In this document: piece by piece, positions 3,190 to 46,480 of the stretch
Position numbering within the stretch: the first letter of the stretch is position 1
Layout of the letters: every line of letters begins with the position of its first letter
Assembly (NCBI RefSeq): GCF_038002965.1
Contig: NZ_JBBOOE010000001.1
Span: 3,019,001 to 3,083,000, forward strand
DNA length: 64,000 nucleotides
Source: Robertmurraya sp. FSL R5-0851
Lineage (GTDB): Bacteria > Bacillota > Bacilli > Bacillales > Cytobacillaceae
Direction of reading: 5' to 3'
Notes under the pieces: generated by a model
What the model was told of the DNA's origin: nothing
Seen by the model: only the letters and a program-made list of their open reading frames with translations
The model's database searches: none
Made by a program: the position numbers and the translations under genes

Positions 3190-4476
3190 TTAATTAATTA
3201 ATTTATTTAAGTGTGAGAAGAACATTGGATATGACACAGAAATTGCTTCTTCATTTTCTAAGGTTACTTCCTCACTGCTAATTAAACTTGCAATGGCAAG
3301 CATCATTCCGATTCGATGATCTCCATAGCTATTCACTTGGCCCCCATGAAGTTTGCTACCACCGTGAATAATCATACCATCGTTCGTTGCTTCAATCGAT
3401 GCTCCTAATTTCTTTAACTCATTTACAACTGTATCAATTCGGTTTGTTTCTTTTACCTTTAATTCCTCAGCGTCCTTAATAACCGTTGTTCCGTTTGCCT
3501 GTGTAGCTAATAAGGCTATGATAGGAATTTCATCGATTAAGCGCGGAATCATATCTCCCTCAATCGTTATTCCCTTAAGACTTGAGGTTGTAATCGTTAA
3601 GTCTGCTACAGGCTCTGCCGCATCTTTACCTTCTTCAGAAACATGAAGAGAGGCACCCATTTGAAGCATCACATCAATAATCCCTGTTCTAGAAGGGTTA
3701 ATACCCACATTGCGCAATGTTACTTCACTATTAGGTACAATCGCTCCTGCAACTAAAAAAAAGGCAGCAGAAGAGATATCACCCGGTACATGAACATGAG
3801 TTGCCTTGAGTGTTTGTCCACCAGTTACGGAGACCTTTAAACCATCAACAGACACTTCCCCACCGAATTGGCGAATCATTCTTTCTGTATGGTCTCTTGT
3901 TTTTGATGGCTCAATAACCGTTGTCGTACCATTTGCTTGTAAGCCTGCTAGGATAATGGCTGATTTTACTTGCGCACTTGCCATTGGTAGCTCGTACGTA
4001 AATCCTTCTAAATTTCCACCTCTAATAGAAATAGGAGTGAACTTCCCATTTTCTCTGCCGTCAATTACTGCTCCCATTTGGCTCAACGGATTCGTAACCC
4101 TTGTCATTGGACGTTTGGCGATTGAAGAATCTCCTTCCAATGCAGCATAAAAAGGTCTGCCTGATAAAATGCCAAGCATTAATCGTATCGTTGTTCCCGA
4201 GTTCCCCACATCAAGTCGTTCAGTAGGTTCTACTAGGCCGTCAAAGCCCTTCCCAATGATTTCAACCTTATCTTCGTGCTGGTGAATCGTTACCCCTAAT
4301 TTTCGAAAGCAAGCAATCGTACTAAGACAGTCTTCACCTGTAAGAAAATTAGATACTGTTGTCTTCCCATGAGCAATCGCTCCAAACATAACAGAACGAT
4401 GAGAAATAGACTTATCTCCTGGTATAGAGAGTTCACCTACCAGTCTCTTTACTTGTGACGTTAACACCGTTGTCAT
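3190..4476 (-). CDS. aroA: 3-phosphoshikimate 1-carboxyvinyltransferase (EPSP synthase)
   Basis: Joins shikimate 3-phosphate and phosphoenolpyruvate to make 5-enolpyruvylshikimate 3-phosphate, the sixth step of the shikimate pathway, in the cytosol. The 428-residue length is normal. Family signatures are visible: [11 protein letters not shown] near the N-terminus, [12 protein letters not shown] for phosphate binding, and the C-terminal [10 protein letters not shown] and GDHRIGM blocks. The ATG at 4476 ([20 protein letters not shown]) is chosen because AAGGAAGG sits 9 bases upstream. In-frame codons further upstream overlap tyrA and have no site. It follows tyrA by 28 bp at the end of the aro operon. 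B. subtilis calls this gene aroE. Confidence 0.96.
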
Positions 4477-4504
4477 TGATTGTATCCTTCCTTTCGTGTA
4501 ACCC

Positions 4505-5611
4505 CTATAGGCCGGTTGAGGTACCATAATTGGTATAACGCTGTATGCATTCCTCTGCTTTGGCCATATCGGTCTCTGTTTGAAAACTGATAACAAGTAC
4601 ACCGTTTATATCTTCTCTAGTTTCTAAAATACGGATATTTGTAATGGATATACGCTCTTTGGCTAAATAACCTGTGATTTCCGAGATAACACCTGGATAA
4701 TCCGGAACATCCACAAATAGATCGTAAAATGCAGGGATTGCTCCCTTTTCCTTACTAGGTAGATCATCTCTAAAATTTTTGGCTTCAGCAAAATAATCGA
4801 ATAGCTGGTCCTCATTGTTATCAGATAATATTTTCGAGAATTTATCCATTTCATCCTTCCAACGATCTAACAAAGAAAGAAGTACCTTCCTGTTATGAAG
4901 GGAAATATCCTTCCACATGGCTGGACTGCTAGAGGCAATTCTAGTAATATCTCTAAAACCACCGGCAGCCAACCTTGTTATAAGCTGATGATCTCTACTT
5001 GTTTGCTCAGCTTGATGTACGAGAGAGGCCGCAATCACATGTGGAAAATGGCTTATAACACCTGTTAAGTAATCATGTTCTTCAGGTGAAATAGTTATAA
5101 ATTTCGCTCTAGTTCCTTCAAGCCAACGCTTTAATAAATGCACTTTATCATCTTGGATATGTGGCTCCGGTGTAAATAAATAAAATGCATTTTCAAATAG
5201 AATTTCCTTAGCTGCTGCAACCCCACTTTTGTGTGAGCCAGCCATCGGATGCCCACCAATAAACGTAATGTTTTTCTCCTTTAAACACCTTGCTTTTAAA
5301 ACAATTGCTTCTTTGGTACTTCCAGCATCACTTATGATCACATCTTGCTTTAGCGGAAGCTCACAAAGTCTCTCAATCATTTTTTCAGTTTCGATAACAG
5401 GCGTTGAAATAAGAATGACATCTGCGTTCACTGCTTCTTCTTCTAAATTGAAACAAATCTCATCAATTACACCAAGCATCTTTCCAAGACGGCATTGTTC
5501 AATATTTATGTCGAAACCTATTAGTGTTGATTCTGGGTGTCTTTTCTTAATGCAAAGAGCTAATGACCCCCCAATTAGCCCTAGTCCAATGACTAGCACA
5601 CGCCCTTTCAA
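4505..5611 (-). CDS. tyrA: Prephenate dehydrogenase with C-terminal ACT domain
   Basis: NAD-dependent oxidative decarboxylation of prephenate to 4-hydroxyphenylpyruvate, the committed step to tyrosine. The 368-residue protein opens with a Rossmann motif, GLGLIGGS at residues 9-16. It contains [12 protein letters not shown], a conserved prephenate dehydrogenase block. It ends with an ACT domain ([20 protein letters not shown] onward, about residues 293-365), which in Bacillus TyrA relatives serves feedback control by aromatic amino acids. The start codon is TTG at 5611 with GGCGGTGA upstream. It lies 21 bp after hisC and 28 bp before aroA, so the genes are clearly one operon. Confidence 0.95.
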
Positions 5612-5632
5612 GAAATCACCGCCTAAAGTTAC

Positions 5633-6730
5633 TTAATGTGCTTTCACTTGCATGTATTGTGACATTTTTTCAATAATGCCAGCATTTTGTTCTTTCGAGC
5701 CAACCGTAACTCGGACGGATGTTGGAAAACCAAGCGCATTTCCTGACCGAACGATATAGCCTCTCTCTAATAAGAACTGAAATACTTCATTGCCATCAGT
5801 CTTAAAATCTATTAAGATAAAATTCCCTTGGGAAGGCATATAAGACAGATTGTGCTCCTTACAGAAATTGTAAAACTGTTCTAATCCTTGATGGTTTAAG
5901 GTACGACAGTTTTCCACATACTCTTGATCACCTAAAGCTTCAATAGCCGCTAATTGTGCAAAGCTATTCACGTTAAATGGCTCTCTCACCGGTTCCAGCG
6001 CTCGAATGATTTCTTTGGAAGCAAATCCATATCCCACACGCAAGCTAGCTAGACCATAAATTTTCGAGAAGGTTCTAAGAACAATCAAATTTGAATACTG
6101 CTCTACTAGTTCCACAGAATTATAGTAATCATCCGCTACTACATACTCGAAGTAAGCTTCATCCAATACCACAAGTGTTTCTTTTGGAACTCTAGCAAGA
6201 AAACTTTCCAACTTTTCTTTTGGAATATATGTACCAGTTGGATTATTCGGACTACATACCCAAACAACATTTGTTTTCTCATCAATGGCCGCAAGCATTT
6301 GATCTAAATCATGGTGACCATCTACCAGAGGAATTTCACGAATTTCTGCACCTTCAATAATCGCATTGTGCTTATACTGTGGGAAAGTTGGCGTAGCCAT
6401 TACCGTATTAAAACCTGGTCGTAAAAGGGCACGGGCAATAATTAGAATCAGTTCATCTGAACCGTTTCCAAAGATCAATTGATCTTTTGTCACTCCCACA
6501 TGCTCTGCTACACACTCGCGTAAGTTAGTGGCATAGCCATCTGGATAAAGTGCGAAATAGCCTGTCTCTTTAGACATAACTTCACTCACTTTTTTTGAAC
6601 AACCAAAAGGATTTTCATTAGAAGCTAATTTTATGATTTCTTCCAACCCATATTGCCTTTTTACTTCATCCTTTGATTTCCCCGGCTGATAAGGTGCTAA
6701 CGACTTTATTTGATCCTTCCATCTCATCAT
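5633..6730 (-). CDS. hisC: Histidinol-phosphate aminotransferase
   Basis: A PLP-dependent class I/II aminotransferase of 365 residues. In Bacillus this enzyme acts both in histidine synthesis (imidazole acetol phosphate to histidinol phosphate) and as an aromatic aminotransferase for Phe and Tyr, which explains its place beside tyrA. Visible signatures are LASNENPFG near the N-terminus, [10 protein letters not shown] and DEAYFEY, and the PLP-lysine block [22 protein letters not shown] precedes two adjacent ATG codons at 6730 and 6727, and either could be used. It is preceded directly by aroH with only 26 bp between. In B. subtilis the six trp genes fill that position. Confidence 0.95.
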
Positions 6731-6756
6731 CCATCACCTCTTACGTATAAATATTC

Positions 6757-7119
6757 CTATTTCTTTAAATCCGGTCGTAAAAGAACGGCTTCTTCCAAAT
6801 AAACATGTTCGATTTCGGTTTGTGCTACTTCAGTATTTACATGCATCATGACCCTAATACATAATTTGATACCAGTCGAAACAGTGATTTCCTTCATACA
6901 CATGACAGGAACATAAGTCCAACCCTCTATTTCACGCATAGCTTTAGCTGGAAATGCAGCTGTAACATCATCGGTTACAGAAATAAATACCGATGCGACT
7001 GACTCTGGAGAGATTCGATTAGCTTGAATCATTTCATTGAGCAGTCTCTTGGTGGATGCTATAATTTCTTCCTCTTTATTTTCTTGGATCGTAATAGCAC
7101 CTCTAACTCCTCTAATCAT
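6757..7119 (-). CDS. aroH: Chorismate mutase, AroH type
   Basis: Monofunctional trimeric chorismate mutase that rearranges chorismate to prephenate. The 120-residue protein matches the B. subtilis AroH fold family over its whole length. The active-site residues known from that enzyme appear at the expected places one residue earlier: Arg6, Phe56, Arg62, Cys74, Glu77, Arg89 and Tyr107. The start overlaps the aroB stop by 4 bp (ATGA), which suggests translational coupling. It is followed immediately by hisC. The family gives no evidence of feedback control. Confidence 0.96.
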   Translation of the reverse strand: MIRGVRGAITIQENKEEEIIASTKRLLNEMIQANRISPESVASVFISVTDDVTAAFPAKAMREIEGWTYVPVMCMKEITVSTGIKLCIRVMMHVNTEVAQTEIEHVYLEEAVLLRPDLKK

Positions 7120-11966: not shown

Positions 11967-12668
11967 TTATTTATGACCAAAATGAACAGCAGCTGCCCCG
12001 CCACTGTATGGCTTATAAGTGACGTCCTTAAAACCAGCTTGTTTGAATAATTCAGCGAGTTCTTTTACCCCTGGAAAATCTCTAGCTGATTCTTGCAGCC
12101 AGGAATATTCACTATAACTTTTTGCAAACATCCTACCAAACAACGGCATAATAAATCGAAAATAAAAATAGAAGAGCTGTCGATAGCCTATTATTGTTGG
12201 TTGTGATGTTTCAAGACATACTGCAATTCCGCCCGGCTTTAATACACGATTCATCTCTTTCAATACTTGAAGATAATCGGGTACATTTCTTAATCCAAAT
12301 CCAATCGTAACATAATCAAATGAATGGTCAGGAAATGGAAGCTCCATGGCATTTCCATGGATGAGCGTCACTTGATTGAGATTGGCCTCAGTAATCTTTT
12401 GTTTACCCACATTAAGCATATTTTGGCTAAAGTCAAGTCCTACCACTTCACCAGTATGGCCTACAGCATCTGCAAGTGCAATGGTCCAATCGGCTGTTCC
12501 ACAACAAACATCTAGTGCCTTTTTCCCTTTTTGTACTTTCATTCTTTTCATCGTATCTTCTCTCCATTTAGTATGGAGTTTAAAGCTAATAACAGAATTC
12601 ATTTTGTCGTAGTTATCTGAGATCTTTTCAAAAACGTTATGAACTCGTTCTTCTTTCGATTGATTCAT
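11967..12668 (-). CDS. menG: Demethylmenaquinone methyltransferase
   Basis: SAM-dependent C-methylation of demethylmenaquinone, the last step of menaquinone synthesis at the membrane face. The 233-residue UbiE/MenG-family protein has the SAM loop [16 protein letters not shown], then [13 protein letters not shown] and the signature [15 protein letters not shown]. The ATG at 12668 has AAGAAGGG about 8 bases upstream. Placement between hepS and hepT puts side-chain synthesis and ring methylation in one transcript. It lies only 5 bp after the hepS stop. Confidence 0.96.
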
Positions 12669-12673
12669 ACTTG

Positions 12674-13492
12674 TTACCCTTCTTCCACAAATGTTTTTGC
12701 CATCGTTTTTTGGTTTATAATGGATGTGATTCGAGAATCTAACAGCTCATTTATTCGAGGAAGCTCTTTTTTAGCCTTTTCTAATAATTGTTTAGAGAAC
12801 TCTATATATCGGTCACAAATCAATATTAAGTAGTTTTGTTGCTCAAGAGACAGGTCTTTAAGTGAACCGTTATGTTTTGGAAAAACAAGAGTATGAAGAG
12901 CGTCAAATACAATCGAGGATTTTCTTTGTACAAAATTATCCTTTTCCTTACTAAGCCGCTTTATTAACAAAAAATTTTCAACAATGCTATCCCATCCATC
13001 TAAACGAAAATAATCAGTAAATTGATCAATAAGAGATGATTCGATCAACTTGACATTATTCATCAACGTATCAATTTCAGAACTACCTTTTTGATATACA
13101 ATTATTTTTTTATCATTAATTTTTTTTATTCCTTGAGCTAGCATCCGGATAGCGTGAACATCATTACACTCTGCTAGTAGTTTATAATATAACCCACTAT
13201 AATAAACGCCAGCTAATACAGTTAATTGCCTCTGCTTTAAGATTTCATTATTCGTATTTGTGTTGGTCACTTGTTCATGAGTATCAAGGGCTACTTGAAG
13301 CAACATGGTCGTTATAGTATAATTCTCCAACTCTTTATCAGATAACTTACACTGATCCAAAATCGAAATTAACAATAAAAGCTTATCTTCGTCTAACACT
13401 GGTTTATTAATATATTGGAACATATAGGGGTGAAGGAGCCTTTCCTCTACTTTTTCCTTCACATCGGCTATTTTTCTTTGAAAGTCTCCCAC
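12674..13492 (-). CDS. hepS: Heptaprenyl diphosphate synthase component I
   Basis: Non-catalytic subunit that pairs with HepT and helps set chain length and product release. The protein is 272 residues if it starts at the GTG at 13492 ([20 protein letters not shown]), which has AAGGGTGAT 4 bases upstream. The open frame continues upstream to 13627, but that part has no ribosome site or family similarity. The region [20 protein letters not shown] and the following helices resemble HepS. The family diverges rapidly, so the identification leans on position between mtrB and menG. Confidence 0.88.
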
Positions 13493-13644
13493 AATTATCA
13501 CCCTTGTATCCCCAAATTCTGTATATGTAATGTGATTACCCTTATTATAATTCATAAAGTTTACTGCATATGTACGATTTATTACTCCACTAAAGGCAGA
13601 GACAATTATAACACAAATGCTTAACAAATGGTCATGTTTAGCAT

Positions 13645-13884
13645 TTATTTCCCTTTTGTTTCGCTCTCAACCTCTCCATAAGAAGTGATAATTTTTGCAT
13701 TTCCGCGAATTTTTATCGCTGATGTGTGTTCAGTAAACTGAGCAATCATTACTTCGCCTTTATCTAGTTTCTCTGAGTGATGAAACTTGGTATCGGTCCC
13801 TCTTGTTAAACCGATTACATTGACACCATCTTCTATTGCTTTAATAACAATATAATCACTTGTTAGCGAAGTTTTTGGGTCCAT
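13645..13884 (-). CDS. mtrB: Tryptophan RNA-binding attenuation protein (TRAP)
   Basis: TRAP forms an 11-subunit ring that, with tryptophan bound, wraps around (G/U)AG repeats in trp leader RNAs and causes early termination. The 79-residue product retains the core [20 protein letters not shown] and [12 protein letters not shown] almost unchanged. The ATG at 13884 is used because GAGGGAG precedes it by 9 bases. A more upstream ATG at 13902 has no site. It sits with folE as the mtrAB pair known in B. subtilis. The trp operon is not beside hisC here, so its targets must lie elsewhere. An N-terminal extension of about four residues (MDPK) differs from the B. subtilis protein. Confidence 0.95.
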
Positions 13885-13946
13885 TATTTCTCGCTCCCTC
13901 ATTTTGATTGAAAGGGCTAACCGTTATGTAGCCCCCTCTATAATGT

Positions 13947-14513
13947 TTAGTATTTAATTAAGGAAAGCACCTCAGCTCTTGCTGTTGCGTCCTCCGCAAG
14001 TGAGCCTCGGACTGCTTGAGTTACGGTCTTAGCACCAGGCTTTTTAACTCCACGCATAGTCATACACATATGCTCTGCTTCAACAACGACCATTGCACCA
14101 TAAGGCTCCAGTTTCTCCATAATCGCGTCAACCACTGTGGAAGTAATTCTTTCTTGCAACTGAGGACGTTTAGCTACTGCTTCAACAGCTCTAGCTAACT
14201 TACTCAAACCCGTGACACGACCATTTCTTGGTATATAAGCTACATGAGCGACACCATAAAAAGGTACAAGATGATGTTCACACATGGAGTAAAACGGAAT
14301 ATCTTTTACAAGGACAATCTCTTCATGGTCCTCACTAAATACTGTTTCGAAATATTCTTTTGGATCTTGTTTCAATCCCGAGAATACTTCCTCATACATT
14401 TTCGCTACTCGTTTTGGCGTATCTAACACACCCTCACGATTTGGATCTTCTCCTACGGCTTCTAATATAAGACGCACCGCTTCCTCTATTTGGGTACGAT
14501 TAACTTCTGACAT
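13947..14513 (-). CDS. folE: GTP cyclohydrolase I
   Basis: Converts GTP to 7,8-dihydroneopterin triphosphate, the entry to folate (and often queuosine) synthesis. The 188-residue type IA enzyme keeps the zinc ligands Cys78 and His81 (CEHHLVPF) and Cys150 (HMCMTMRGV), as well as [17 protein letters not shown] lies 7 bases before the ATG. It is the first gene of the folE-mtrB-hepS-menG-hepT line. B. subtilis also calls it mtrA. The folate connection to TRAP is through trpG, a shared folate/tryptophan gene, which is not present here. Confidence 0.96.
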
Positions 14514-14714: not shown

Positions 14715-14833
14715 TTATTTTACAGCGTCTTTAAGCGCTTTTCCTGGTTTGAAAGCAGGAACCTTGCTAGCAGAGATTTCGATCTCTTCACCAGTTTGTG
14801 GGTTACGTCCTTTACGAGCTGCACGCTCACGAA
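14715..14833 (-). CDS. hbs: HU DNA-binding protein, exon 2 (C-terminal 39 residues)
   Basis: The 119 nt provide the last two bases of the Val52 codon, then 38 more codons and TAA. They encode [18 protein letters not shown] and then [19 protein letters not shown]. This is the DNA-contacting beta arm of HU with the conserved RNPQTG turn, followed by the final helix. It has no start codon or ribosome site of its own and is only meaningful joined to exon 1 at 17688-17841. Joining G at 17688 to T at 14833 keeps the frame exactly. The spliced product is 90 residues, versus 92 in B. subtilis HBsu. No second HU gene is visible in the window. Confidence 0.93.
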
Positions 14834-14884
14834 ATAGTGATAGGTAACGTTTTGTTTATGCAACTCCACGTTTTCCCCCACTCC

Positions 14885-14918
14885 ACACCGTACGTGCGAG
14901 TTTCCCCGCATACGGCGT
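14885..14918 (-). ncRNA. Group II intron domain V
   Basis: A 34-nt hairpin read on the minus strand. CGCCGTATGCG pairs with CGCACGTACGGTG around a GGAAAC-type loop. This is the catalytic domain V signature (the usual form has CCGUAU...ACGUACGG). In my alignment the catalytic triad position reads CGC rather than AGC. Domain VI follows directly and ends at the hbs exon 2 junction. Confidence 0.85.
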
Positions 14919-15012
14919 TCCATCGATACAGATACCTAATGGTTTACCCAGTACATCGTCGCCTCCGTATGGGCATTCTAGTTAATTCTCGTCGCTCGTT
15001 TAACAACTATAC

Positions 15013-16908
15013 CTATTCAGTCATAGTTAATTCTTTTCTTAACTTAAGAATTTTCTTCTGCTGATTAGGCTTTAAGCCTTCCATAACCTGTACATCATTA
15101 TGGACATATTTATGGCACTGAACACACAATGTCGTCAAGTTAGAGACTTTATTCACTTTATCAAGGGACAATTCAGGTTTGCGATGATGTACCTCCACTG
15201 AATGTGGGTATACAAAATCTTTGCAAACTGAGCATTTGGCTTTATCACGTTTAATAGCGTATGGTCGATTCATATAATATTCAAAGTTGTGTTTATGGTT
15301 ATTTAGGTTCGCATATATTCCTAATTTATCGTAATTAGTCCATATGTCTTCGAGATGTAGCTTACGATTCTTTTGAGTCGATTCGTGCCATTTGTCTCGC
15401 CCCGCAGGGGTGTAAGGAATCCAAGCAGGATTGAATAACTTTGCATACTCAATCTTAGTGATTGCAGTAATAGTTATCCCCACGATACTGTCTTGATATA
15501 CTTCTGCGTATGTCTTGAAGTTATACCCTTCGTGCCTTACAACCCTGTTAGAAAGCTCGCATACCTTATAGATATGTTTGGTATGATTTCCACCATAGAG
15601 CTTCCTAAAACTACCCAACGTTACTCTGAATAATAAATTATCGATTTTCGAAAAGGTTTTCTTTGCTATGCCGATTTTATAATAGTTGGCTATACCAATG
15701 ATTTTTGAATTGATAAGTTCAATCCGTGCTACTCTGTCTTTAGCGTGTTTTAGTCTACGTAATTGGTTAATATCCTGACTAATTTCATTAATCTTAGGCA
15801 AGAGCTTCTTCCAATCAGGATAGACTTTCCCAACTATCTTACCATCCAGACGTTTAGGTTCGGCTTTGATTAAGAAACCGAGAAAGTGTAATGGTTCTTC
15901 TCGACAGTCTGTAATGACCGTTTTCTCCTCGGATAATTCAAGTGAGAGTTTATGCTTCATATACTTCCTTAGCTTAGTGAGAAGCGTTTGGGCGTATTCC
16001 TTGGATTCCGTGAGGATTATCCAGTCATCTGCATATCTCACAAGGTTTACCTTGTGGTGTTTCGCAACCGTCTTATTCCGTAAGGATTGGTAAGTCTTTT
16101 CTTCGACAGTTTTTCCTTTTCTAGTAGTGGTATAAGTCACTACCGCTGGGTGTGATTCCCATAAGTCGCTAACCATCCAATCGAAGTTGTTCAGGTATAT
16201 ATTTGCTAGAAGGGGGCTGATAATACCACCTTGCGGTGTACCCATATCAGAGTCGATTATCTCACCGTCATCTAGTATCTTCGATTTCAGCATCTTTTTG
16301 ATGAGAGCAAGGAATTGTTTATCCTTGATTCCCATTTCCCATAACATTGCTAGTAGCTTGTTGTGGTTGATGTTGTCGAAGTACCCTTTAATATCGCCTT
16401 CGATGGCAATATAGGCTTTCGCATTGATGTTTTGTACAACCCTTGCGATGGCGTGTTCTGTACTCCTGTATGGTCTAAAACCATAACTATGAGGGTAGAA
16501 TTTTGCTTCACAATAGGGTTCGATAGCCATCCTTGCTATTTCCTGAATAATTCGGTCAACTATTACGGGTATGCCAAGTGGTCTGAATTTGCCTGTATTT
16601 TTCCCTTTAGGAATATAGGTTCTTCTAACCATCTTTGGGTTATAGTTGTCAATTTGAGATTTAATAAGTTCGATAAGTTCCAATCTATCCATTTGTAGAT
16701 AGTCGTTGATGGTTGCACCATCGACTCCCGCAGTTTGGGAACCCCGATTGGATTTTATGTTGTGTATGGCTTTATCAATTACTGGTTCGGATTTCATAAA
16801 CTCAAGTAAATTGTATAGAGGTTTTCCCTCTAGAGCCACTTGATATAACTTATCTTGGAATCCTATTAAGTCTCTTTCTCCTGCGATTGTACGACCTTTG
16901 AACCCCAT
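15013..16908 (-). CDS. ltrA: Group II intron-encoded protein: reverse transcriptase, maturase, HNH endonuclease
   Basis: A 631-residue protein that binds its intron RNA, promotes splicing, and copies the intron into DNA during retrohoming. Domain order is RT-0/RT fingers with QTAGVDGATI, then SYGFRPYRSTEHA, GYFDNINH, GTPQGGIISPLLANIYL and the catalytic YADD in LVRYADDWIILTES (about residue 292). A maturase/domain X thumb region follows to about residue 480. A C-terminal HNH module (about residues 560-612) has CSVCK, HHRKPE and CVQCHKYVH. AAAGGAGTG precedes the ATG. The frame is intact with no decay, so the element may still be mobile. It sits in intron domain IV. The symbol is the generic ltrA name. 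Confidence 0.95.
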   Translation of the reverse strand: MGFKGRTIAGERDLIGFQDKLYQVALEGKPLYNLLEFMKSEPVIDKAIHNIKSNRGSQTAGVDGATINDYLQMDRLELIELIKSQIDNYNPKMVRRTYIPKGKNTGKFRPLGIPVIVDRIIQEIARMAIEPYCEAKFYPHSYGFRPYRSTEHAIARVVQNINAKAYIAIEGDIKGYFDNINHNKLLAMLWEMGIKDKQFLALIKKMLKSKILDDGEIIDSDMGTPQGGIISPLLANIYLNNFDWMVSDLWESHPAVVTYTTTRKGKTVEEKTYQSLRNKTVAKHHKVNLVRYADDWIILTESKEYAQTLLTKLRKYMKHKLSLELSEEKTVITDCREEPLHFLGFLIKAEPKRLDGKIVGKVYPDWKKLLPKINEISQDINQLRRLKHAKDRVARIELINSKIIGIANYYKIGIAKKTFSKIDNLLFRVTLGSFRKLYGGNHTKHIYKVCELSNRVVRHEGYNFKTYAEVYQDSIVGITITAITKIEYAKLFNPAWIPYTPAGRDKWHESTQKNRKLHLEDIWTNYDKLGIYANLNNHKHNFEYYMNRPYAIKRDKAKCSVCKDFVYPHSVEVHHRKPELSLDKVNKVSNLTTLCVQCHKYVHNDVQVMEGLKPNQQKKILKLRKELTMTE

Positions 16909-17286
16909 ATCATCACTCCTTTTGTAGTAGTGACTGATAGGTTAGCTGTTTAACTCGGACTTGCCTTGTATTGTCGTACGTCGATTTTCACTATCTTCTC
17001 TACCGACTAGTCCCCTTCGCTCAGAGATGTTTATATCCTTCATATAGAATTACTCCTATACTAATAACGGCATCTCGTCATCACTACTATGGGACGCTGA
17101 CTGCTTTCATCACGCTCTTAGGTAATAGCATACCTCCTGTGATTACTCGCTCTCGACTGTTCCACACGACCTTTCCTTTAAACTGAACTTAGGCTCCCTC
17201 TTTACGCCGTTAGGCCTGAATAGAGTTTAATATCACAAATTGTTCTCTATTTCCAATACTATTTAGTGTATTAGATGATGGAACCA

Positions 17287-17292
17287 TCGAAG
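17287..17292 (-). other. Candidate exon-binding site EBS1 of the intron
   Basis: On the minus strand CTTCGA at 17292-17287 is the exact complement of TCGAAG, the last six bases of hbs exon 1 (IBS1). It lies in the loop of a hairpin with stem GATGG/CCATC, about 396 nt from the intron 5' end, a plausible place in domain I. A weaker EBS2 candidate, TCCAAAA, lies near 17395-17389 and pairs with the ATTTGGG region of exon 1, allowing one G-U pair. This is complementarity by eye, without a folded model. Confidence 0.6.
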
Positions 17293-17687
17293 AAAATCCC
17301 ATCACACCTACTCTGTGTCCCCTTAGTGACAAGGGGAGGCGGCAATATCGACGCTTCACACAAGGGTTAGTCACCTAGCCATATTCAGTTTTGGAGTCCC
17401 GCATCATTGTTACGTTCTCAACCGAAGTAGAGATTCTTCATATAGAAGAGAGTCACTCGCAACGTAGATTACGACTTTACCTAGCTTCGTACAATCTGGT
17501 GTGCTATCACCTCGTTGCACGTAGGAGTCTCAGACTCATATCCAAATGTGATATTAGATATGGGGCGATTTTTCATACGCCCATCAGGTGCGTGTAGTTA
17601 GACTCCAACGGAGTCCGCTCATTTCCTAACTTTGGATTTGCATCCTATAGCGTTATGCTACGTTAGTTATGGAGCAACAGCCCGCAC

Positions 17688-17841
17688 CTTCGAAGTTCCC
17701 AAATCCGATTAATTGAACTTTATCACCGTTTTTAAGGGCTTCAAGAATTGAATCGAAAACTGCGTCAACTGCTTTAGTAGCGTCCTTTTTAGAAAGTTCA
17801 CTCGCTTCAGCAACTGCGTTGATTAGTTCTGTCTTGTTCAT
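17688..17841 (-). CDS. hbs: HU DNA-binding protein, exon 1 (N-terminal 51 residues)
   Basis: HU is the main histone-like nucleoid protein. It bends DNA as a homodimer and is essential in B. subtilis. This exon gives 51 codons plus one base: [20 protein letters not shown] through to IGFGNFE, the helical dimer part. GGGAGGAGGTGAAAGGC places an excellent ribosome site before ATG 17841. Reading on without splicing adds 11 foreign residues ([11 protein letters not shown]) and stops inside the intron, leaving a product without the DNA-binding arms. The exon ends at a self-complementary CTTCGAAG, with the intron entering after its last G. A sigma-A promoter lies upstream at 17959-17987. Confidence 0.95.
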
Positions 17842-18184: not shown

Positions 18185-19663
18185 TTATAAGATTATAGCA
18201 ATTAATCCACCAGAACCTTCATTGATGATTCTTTCTAGTGTTTCTTTTAGTTTATACCTTGCGTTTTCAGGCATTAATGATAATTTTGCTTGAATCCCTT
18301 CACGAACAATTGAACTTAGGCTTCTTCCAAAAATATCAGAGTTCCAGATAGAAAGTGGATCGTCCTCAAAATCCTGCATTAAGTAACGAACCAATTCCTC
18401 ACTTTGCTTCTCTGTACCGATAATTGGAGCAAATTCAGACTCTACATCCACTTTAATCATATGAATGGATGGAGCTACCGCTTTTAAGCGTACACCAAAG
18501 CGTGGTCCTTGACGGATGATCTCAGGCTCATCGAGGCTCATATCCGCAAGTGATGGTGCAGCAATTCCATAACCTGTTTGTTTCACCATCTTAAGCGCAT
18601 CAGAGATTTGATCATATTCTTGCTTAGCATGTGCAAAGTCTTGCATTAGCTCTAACAAATGATCTTTTCCTCTTATTTCTACTCCGACAATTTCTTTTAA
18701 AATGTCATCGTATAAATCATCTGGAGCATATAGGTCGATCTCTGCAATTCCTTGCCCCATCTCAATTCCAGCAAGACCTGCACGATCAATAAATTCATAA
18801 TCACTAAATTGACTTACGACTCTGTCAACATCTCTTAATCTCTTAATATCTTTAACTGTGTCTTTCACTGCTTCCTGATAGCTTTCCCTTAACCAGTGAT
18901 CTTCTCTAAGTACCATAACCCAGCTAGGAAGATTCACGTTTACTTCGAGCACAGGGAATTCATAAAGCGCTTCACGCATCACGTTCATGACATCACCTTC
19001 GCGCATTCCCTCTACACTCATAGCTAATACAGGAATATCGTATTTCTCTGAAAGCTCTGAACGTAATTTTTCCGTATTTGGATGATATGGTTGTACGCTG
19101 TTAATGACCATAATGAACGGTTTGCCAACCTCTTTTAATTCATTGATTACTCTTTCCTCGGCTTCTAAGTATGCAGAACGTGGAATTTCTCCGATGGTAC
19201 CATCTGTAGTAATAACCACACCAATCGTTGAGTGCTCTTGTATAACCTTCCTTGTTCCAATTTCAGCTGCTTCGTGGAATGGAATAGGCTCCTCATACCA
19301 AGGCGTATTAATCATTCTTGGTCCATTTTCGTCTTCATAACCCTTTGCACCTGGGACCGTATAGCCCACACAGTCAACTAAGCGGATATTCACATCCAAC
19401 CCATCGTCAACATGAATGCTTGCAGCCTGATTTGGAACAAATTTTGGTTCAGTTGTCATAATCGTTTTTCCAGCAGCACTTTGAGGCAATTCATCTTGGG
19501 TGCGAGCTCGATCTGATTCATTTGCCATGTTTGGAATAACAACTAGCTCCATAAATTTCTTAATAAAGGTTGATTTTCCTGTTCTTACAGCTCCTACAAC
19601 TCCTAAATATATATCGCCGCCCGTTCTTTCGGCAATATCTTTAAAAATATCTACCTTTTCCAA
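18185..19663 (-). CDS. spoIVA: Stage IV sporulation protein A
   Basis: An ATP-hydrolysing, self-assembling protein that coats the forespore surface and forms the basement layer for the spore coat. It is anchored by SpoVM and is also needed for cortex formation. The 492-residue protein begins MEKVDIFKDIAERTGGDIYL, nearly identical to B. subtilis. The Walker A motif GAVRTGKS lies at residues 24-31 of a TRAFAC-like NTPase domain. The C-terminal end, after GSGGL, is short and hydrophobic. The start codon is TTG at 19663 with AGGAGGGG upstream. The gene has its own promoter region and terminator. It is expected to be switched on in the mother cell by sigma-E. Confidence 0.97.
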   Translation of the reverse strand: MEKVDIFKDIAERTGGDIYLGVVGAVRTGKSTFIKKFMELVVIPNMANESDRARTQDELPQSAAGKTIMTTEPKFVPNQAASIHVDDGLDVNIRLVDCVGYTVPGAKGYEDENGPRMINTPWYEEPIPFHEAAEIGTRKVIQEHSTIGVVITTDGTIGEIPRSAYLEAEERVINELKEVGKPFIMVINSVQPYHPNTEKLRSELSEKYDIPVLAMSVEGMREGDVMNVMREALYEFPVLEVNVNLPSWVMVLREDHWLRESYQEAVKDTVKDIKRLRDVDRVVSQFSDYEFIDRAGLAGIEMGQGIAEIDLYAPDDLYDDILKEIVGVEIRGKDHLLELMQDFAHAKQEYDQISDALKMVKQTGYGIAAPSLADMSLDEPEIIRQGPRFGVRLKAVAPSIHMIKVDVESEFAPIIGTEKQSEELVRYLMQDFEDDPLSIWNSDIFGRSLSSIVREGIQAKLSLMPENARYKLKETLERIINEGSGGLIAIIL

Positions 19664-46262: not shown

Positions 46263-46327
46263 TTTGATTAGAAGTCACGCTTAATAAACGTTCAAAACTC
46301 TCCTTTTTGAACGTCTGCAGAACCTCC

Positions 46328-46455
46328 ATCTTCTCCCATCCAGACTTTACTGTCGGCTTTGGAATCGCACCAAATCCTGCCCAAAAACCAGGCTCGCGGG
46401 CTTAGAGTGTTACACTCATTACCGCCGGTCGGGAATCACACCCTGCCCCGAAGAT
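46328..46455 (-). ncRNA. FMN riboswitch (RFN element)
   Basis: The minus strand holds the conserved RFN aptamer segments in order: ATCTTCGGGGCAGGGTG, CCCGACCGGCGGTAATGAG, AGCCCGCGAGC, TTTGGTGCGATTCC, AAAGCCGACAGT and AGTCTGGATGGGAGAAGAT. The first and last pair as P1. It lies 165 bp upstream of the ribU start, followed by a terminator, so FMN is expected to switch ribU off by early termination. Confidence 0.96.
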
Positions 46456-46480
46456 AGACCAATATTATATTTTCCACATC

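Follow-up and report, generated by a model that had tools for sequence, protein, structure and literature searches.

The gene hbs, which encodes HU, was analysed in a 64,000-nucleotide stretch of the Robertmurraya sp. FSL R5-0851 genome (contig NZ_JBBOOE010000001.1, positions 3,019,001 to 3,083,000; this whole stretch is the window). The gene carries a complete and apparently mobile group II intron, which we assign to a lineage specialised in HU genes and which probably arrived by retrohoming; its transcript is expected to be spliced to normal HU. The probability of this reading is put at about 0.87. An earlier reading of the DNA letters without database searches (the original prediction) had located the intron and had remarked that bacterial group II introns usually avoid essential genes. 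The literature agrees on the latter point, as far as the portions cited here go: most bacterial group II introns lie outside housekeeping genes, with recA and a heat-shock operon cited as exceptions (Zimmerly & Semper 2015, PMC4424553), and cases in essential genes are termed rare and intriguing (Qu et al. 2018, PMC6003770).

Anatomy of the split hbs gene

The gene and its intron consist of the following features, in coordinates of the window.

17688..17841, minus strand: hbs exon 1, HU residues 1-51 and the first base of codon 52 (PF00216 match over residues 1-51)
14834..17687, minus strand: group II intron inside hbs, 2,854 nt, GTGCG...CTAT
14715..14833, minus strand: hbs exon 2, the remainder of codon 52 through the stop codon (PF00216 match over residues 53-90)
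17653..17655, minus strand: in-frame stop codon met by unspliced mRNA (intron bases 33-35), yielding a 62-aa product
17388..17562, minus strand: ribozyme domain I region (D1-D4-5), Rfam RF02004, 42.1 bits (gathering threshold 34.5)
15013..16908, minus strand: intron-encoded protein (IEP), 631 aa, with reverse transcriptase (RT), maturase (GIIM) and HNH endonuclease domains
14834..14920, minus strand: domains V and VI, Rfam RF00029, 63.1 bits, E 4.9e-10, model positions 1-77 of 77

Joining of the exons (154 and 119 nt) gives 273 nt, that is 90 aa and a stop codon, with the intron in phase 1 and the codon for V52 split after its first base. The resulting protein is 100% identical to the uninterrupted HU in all four other genomes of the genus (hereafter the sister genomes), and the 273 coding bases align with each of them without a gap through the junction (265-270 identical). 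The joined flanks of the window are 95-98% identical to the four over 867-874 bases, with 2, 2, 2 and 8 gap columns, the nearest of which is separated from the junction by 119 bases and falls at the end of the stop codon. A seamless empty hbs site was thereby seen in 4/4 sister genomes. The exon lengths, the 90-residue product, the frame kept across the split codon and the 62-residue product of unspliced mRNA were all as the original prediction had given them, to the base, and the comparison it had proposed with close relatives returned an uninterrupted hbs in every sister genome.

The ends of the intron satisfy the group II pattern (5' GUGYG, here GTGCG; 3' AY, here AT), the domain V/VI match terminates on the base preceding exon 2, and no lesion was found in the ribozyme by its Rfam matches. 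The IEP scored above the Pfam cut-offs for RVT_1 (PF00078), GIIM (PF08388) and HNH and above the NCBIfam cut-off for group_II_RT_mat (TIGR04416), and AGGAG lies seven bases ahead of its ATG. In an alignment of seven IEPs (the window IEP plus six relatives, among them two that are nearly the same), the RT residues A293, D294 and D295 and the HNH residues C559, C562, H574, C595, C598, H599 and H603 are invariant. These Rfam, Pfam and NCBIfam matches uphold the earlier claim of a complete group II intron with GTGCG, an RT/maturase/HNH protein and domains V and VI.

The intron lineage and its target in HU genes

The IEP was compared by tblastn with 72,556 plasmid records, which gave 15 records with E up to 1e-100 and a single record at 83% identity: a stretch (L033) of CP079755.1, labelled Klebsiella grimontii pNY3A. 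The intron of L033 is 79% identical in DNA to that of the window over 2,827 columns. It lies in an HU gene different from the window hbs, at the identical codon: the match to HU residues 1-51 ends at 4196 and that to residues 52-90 starts at 7067, and with the intron at 4198-7067 the codon is split as in the window. The Bacillaceae plasmid CP045534.1 (L057) holds the HU gene of L033 without an intron, positions 3958-4197 and 7068-7232 of L033 corresponding gap-free to its positions 1415-1654 and 1655-1819; judged by this alignment, it is a second natural empty site, for L033. In the DNA of the window and of L033, the insertion point falls between the first and second bases of the codon that follows GFGxFE in an HU gene.

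L033 probably has its true home on a plasmid of B. cereus type, and the Klebsiella label may be wrong or due to contamination, because the L033 IEP agrees at 627/629 positions with P0004, which is named for the B. cereus group, and because outside itself the stretch matched Bacillaceae plasmids only (8/8 other records). L033 looks Bacillus-like in its content, with fosB, the B. cereus-group IEP and an HU gene resembling the one on a Bacillaceae plasmid.

Between the IEPs of the window and L033 (629 codons), the proportion of differing synonymous sites (pS) is 0.75 and that of nonsynonymous sites (pN) is 0.10; pS is near saturation, and a corrected synonymous rate would therefore be unreliable. 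Because pN is 0.10 against a near-saturated pS, the IEP shows the signature of long purifying selection.

A profile built from two 62-aa read-through products matched 7,985 of 8,000 proteins scored, and the best 120 were considered. Among these best 120 of 7,985, the top five (P0121-P0125) are all 62 aa long and share the tail GAGCC[SP]IT. One of them, P0121, is the window's own read-through product; the other sources are a JGI metagenome, B. thuringiensis serovar medellin, a plasmid of B. cereus FRI-35 and a second metagenome set. The HU parts of the five are 55-94% identical to one another, while the unspliced length is the same in 5/5. Thirteen of the 120 were inspected as sequence, five with the tail and eight without, and in none of the remaining 107 did the alignment cover over 84% of the query, i.e. 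extend across the tail.

Relatives of the IEP fall into a close group (P0001-P0004; 90, 87, 86 and 83% identical), after which identity drops to 59-60%. P0001-P0003 likely lie in HU genes, as the parallel numbers of IEPs and split HU proteins suggest. The nearest relative beyond the >80% clade is encoded by the intron of G038 (60%, near P0005 of Cytobacillus firmus at 59%). This intron, the located one of the 59-60% relatives, has the same 5' end, GTGCGGGCTGT, but occupies a different, phage- or plasmid-like host gene. At its locus (L040; G038 C18:26000-38000), two distinct group II introns are found a short distance apart, within genes of phage or plasmid character. Taken together, these comparisons indicate that the hbs intron is a member of a mobile lineage seated at the same codon of HU genes.

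No near copy of the hbs intron was found in its own genome, where the IEP matches next in rank reach 31-50% identity. A single match, the own genome, was obtained from 397 genomes of the order (E 1e-200) and again from 398 genomes of the class (1e-180; the two samples overlap), while 193 genomes of the family (1e-150) gave seven including the own genome, the best other at 60%. Three IEP loci at 43-52% were found in the genome contig collection, and viral contigs gave none by junction pattern and none by profile. Among phage records, ten matched the window intron, in short domain V/VI stretches only, and none matched the L033 intron. Bacillus phages AR9 and PBS1 (KU878088.1 120447-120538, and others) have introns whose domain V/VI stretch shares 83% identity with the one in the hbs intron.

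Target recognition would rest on a pairing between an exon-binding site in the intron (EBS1) and an intron-binding site in exon 1 (IBS1).

17275..17305, minus strand: hairpin with EBS1 at its tip (intron 383-413; 11-bp outer stem in the window and L033)
17287..17292, minus strand: EBS1, CUUCGA, complementary to IBS1 at 6/6 bases
17688..17693, minus strand: IBS1, TCGAAG, the final six bases of exon 1

CUUCGA occurs once in the first 800 and last 180 nt of the intron. L033 has TTGAAG at the end of the exon, where Phe is encoded by TTT in place of TTC, and CUUCAA in the loop; the two partners of the pairing have changed in concert. By eye, the stem of the hairpin differs between the window and L033 by one G-C to A-U double change and by three one-sided changes that retain pairing; folded in isolation, the window hairpin closes two more weak pairs within the loop. 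In the L040 intron, 60% related and in a different gene, the corresponding loop matches the exon of that intron at 6/7 positions (by eye).

These observations suggest how the intron could persist. Through EBS1-IBS1 pairing, the intron ribonucleoprotein (RNP) would recognise the sequence coding for GFGNFEVRER, a conserved HU motif, and retrohoming would place the intron seamlessly between the first two bases of codon 52. On the hbs pre-mRNA, ribosomes would translate exon 1 and reach the stop codon at intron bases 33-35, while the IEP would be translated from its own start within the intron, bind and assist splicing by the ribozyme. Ligated exons would then give the normal 90-aa HU, and the excised RNP would be able to home into an intronless HU gene, with the lineage as a whole specialised in HU genes, chromosomal and plasmid-borne. 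For a lineage so specialised, the conserved coding motif would offer a lasting target for homing, and selection for efficient splicing and an intact IEP would follow from the requirement for HU.

The arrangement could in principle be an assembly artefact or contamination, in favour of which nothing was found, and we give this hardly any credence. The insert is seamless, in sense orientation, in frame and with a matched EBS1 within a 4.76-Mb contig; P0121 occurs on three contigs, the longest of 107,814 bases and hence other contigs (they may be the same isolate's other assemblies); and the same arrangement recurs in L033 and the other split HU proteins.

Splicing might also be conditional, the intron regulating the level of HU in response to growth phase, magnesium, temperature or HU itself. 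A regulatory role of group II introns in essential genes is speculated on in the cited part of Qu et al. 2018 (PMC6003770), and the perfect EBS1-IBS1 match over six bases of the hbs intron is compatible with it, but the same anatomy is expected from an intron that simply splices well, and we consider such regulation unlikely.

Dependence of HU on splicing and a second HU-like gene

According to the original prediction, all HU made from this locus depends on splicing and the supply of HU is linked to intron activity. This stands for the HU from hbs and was narrowed for HU as a whole, because the genome has a second HU-like gene elsewhere.

C1:2171192-2171461 of the own genome (L001:1495-1767): second HU-like gene, complete, 90 aa, 52% identical to HU

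A search of the genome for such a gene had itself been proposed as a check, with a second intact HU gene expressed in place of a spliced hbs named as evidence to the contrary. The search thus returned half of that contrary case, but in the form of a fast-evolving syntenic paralogue. Three of the four sister genomes, in which hbs is uninterrupted, carry the second gene (54-60% identical to HU), and the sister without it is a 66% complete genome. In those three it adjoins the same neighbour, which we take to be gltD-like (97-98% identical). The second HU is 71-86% identical between species of the genus versus 100% for HU, and its best named relatives are from Robertmurraya (71-82%). With the NCBIfam HU models, intact HU scored at best 120.6 bits and the second HU 84.2, both under every cut-off, and the models did not separate the two. 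The second gene also fits the intron EBS1 less well, because its junction codons are GAAACT and not GAAGTT.

By these comparisons the second gene is an old, fast-changing paralogue. The proposal that it serves as a replacement for hbs was weakened, since sister genomes with intact hbs carry it at the same place; its fast evolution and its synteny in 3/4 sisters with intact hbs argue that it did not arise for that purpose. It could nonetheless soften a shortage of HU.

A more severe version holds that hbs is being lost, the intron splicing poorly or not at all as a recent passenger after the second HU took over. The intact 90-aa second gene in the own genome fits this, and only one hbs change is specific to the own genome, which is compatible with recent insertion. 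Against it stand the 52% identity of the second gene to HU, its shared location next to the gltD-like gene in three sisters whose hbs is intact, and its fast change (71-86%) relative to HU (100%) and to the gltD-like neighbour (97-98%). Ribozyme and IEP are without lesion, and the near-saturation of synonymous sites between the window and L033 speaks for a long residence of the lineage in HU genes. Loss of hbs is therefore rated as distinctly improbable.

Several points weigh against the reading of a mobile, spliced intron from an HU-specialised lineage. If hbs were lost, the second HU-like gene might compensate. Own-specific hbs substitutions number one, too few for a selection test on the exons, and exon evolution therefore cannot show that the split gene still functions. 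DNA joins the intron to an HU gene for the window and L033 only, P0122-P0125 being assigned by their protein tails. The intron is absent from 4/4 sister genomes, and its presence in the genus is therefore patchy. For a second pairing (EBS2-IBS2), several weak candidates were found that differ between the window and L033, with no convincing common pairing. Splicing in vivo, finally, is deduced from the DNA, and from the same source we infer retrohoming as the route and the dependence of hbs output on the maturase.

A further step would be addiction, in which the lineage has turned the HU coding motif into a permanent homing site, the main HU is limited by the maturase of the intron, the selfish IEP becomes conditionally essential, and changes in splicing, or in HU as the protein that packs the target DNA, feed back on chromosome packing and intron mobility. 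We regard this as a speculative extension, with the odds clearly against it.

Known group II introns and other elements

No group II intron in an HU gene was found in a literature search of titles and abstract starts, which did not extend to the group II intron database or the main B. cereus survey; earlier notice of an HU-gene intron is possible. Group II introns in essential genes are already known, and HU is an unusual and revealing host gene among them.

Domain V of the hbs intron is almost letter for letter that of B.psf.I1, and because of this near identity (the IEPs are only 39% identical) the hbs intron probably belongs to bacterial class B. B.psf.I1 is listed in the beta subgroup of that class in the portion of Tourasse et al. 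(PMC3261151) cited here. With B.psf.I1 and the Bacillaceae class B introns, the hbs intron shares a nearly identical domain V and an IEP related along its whole length. It differs from B.psf.I1 in the 39% identity of its IEP and in its host, which for B.psf.I1 is the gene of a DNA primase. The 3' extension described for the B.psf.I1 subgroup in the same portion of PMC3261151 (53-56 nt between domain VI and the 3' splice site) is absent from the hbs intron, where domain VI reaches exon 2. Homing of B.th.I6 into pXO1-42, reported there as well, resembles the hbs lineage in that one intron type enters one gene.

Two other introns offer a comparison of host genes. The heat-shock operon intron reportedly lies in Azotobacter groEL at the stop codon, so that there is no frame to restore. 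Judged by their titles, this case (Adamidi et al. 2003) likewise concerns an essential operon but in another phylum, and the Geobacillus kaustophilus intron (Chee & Takami 2005) likewise a housekeeping gene of a Bacillales chromosome, with recA and not HU as host.

Among solved structures, the best sequence match to the IEP is LtrA, the protein of Ll.LtrB, a class IIA/ML intron. Ll.LtrB of Lactococcus lactis is likewise mobile and uses EBS-IBS pairing; it lies in a plasmid relaxase gene and lowers the host-gene mRNA (PMC6003770, in the part cited). The same part of Qu et al. 2018 describes this lowering of host-gene mRNA through EBS-IBS pairing as a proposed reason why group II introns avoid such genes, and HBsu is described as essential and highly abundant in B. 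subtilis in the cited section of PMC7261158. Because introns have been proposed to depress host mRNA and HBsu is essential and abundant, yet the lineage persists in HU genes, it would be a natural counter-example to the exclusion of group II introns from essential, well-expressed bacterial genes. It raises the questions of how a bacterial intron splices well enough for HU, whether the maturase has become essential, and whether, with EBS1 and IBS1 matching perfectly, spliced mRNA can avoid being opened again. Introns of organelles nearly always sit in housekeeping genes (PMC4424553, in the portion cited), and the HU introns would be a bacterial case of that way of life.

The genes around hbs in the window, with putative names given to the open reading frames, are:

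18185-19663: spoIVA
13947-14513: folE/mtrA-like
13645-13902: mtrB-like
12674-13627: hepS-like
11967-12668: menG-like

The order spoIVA, hbs, folE/mtrA-like, mtrB-like, hepS-like, menG-like matches what we take to be that of the B. subtilis hbs region, and because of this match the window gene is regarded as the standard chromosomal hbs.

Elsewhere in the own genome, three tandem tyrosine recombinases with inverted ends form an element of ~3,455 bp, present in six practically identical full copies (L042-L047):

C1:480422-483876
C2:74711-78165
C2:108333-111787
C2:240112-243566
C2:464079-467533
C2:520008-523462

Each of the six copies interrupts an RT gene of a group II intron, always at the conserved PQGG motif and with both orientations represented, and the element, which we take to be RIT-like, seems to specialise on group II introns. 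Nested introns (twintrons) were considered for the split IEPs elsewhere in the genome and rejected, the three-recombinase element having been found instead. The window also contains one riboswitch:

46324-46459, minus strand: flavin mononucleotide (FMN) riboswitch, 120.3 bits, ordinary

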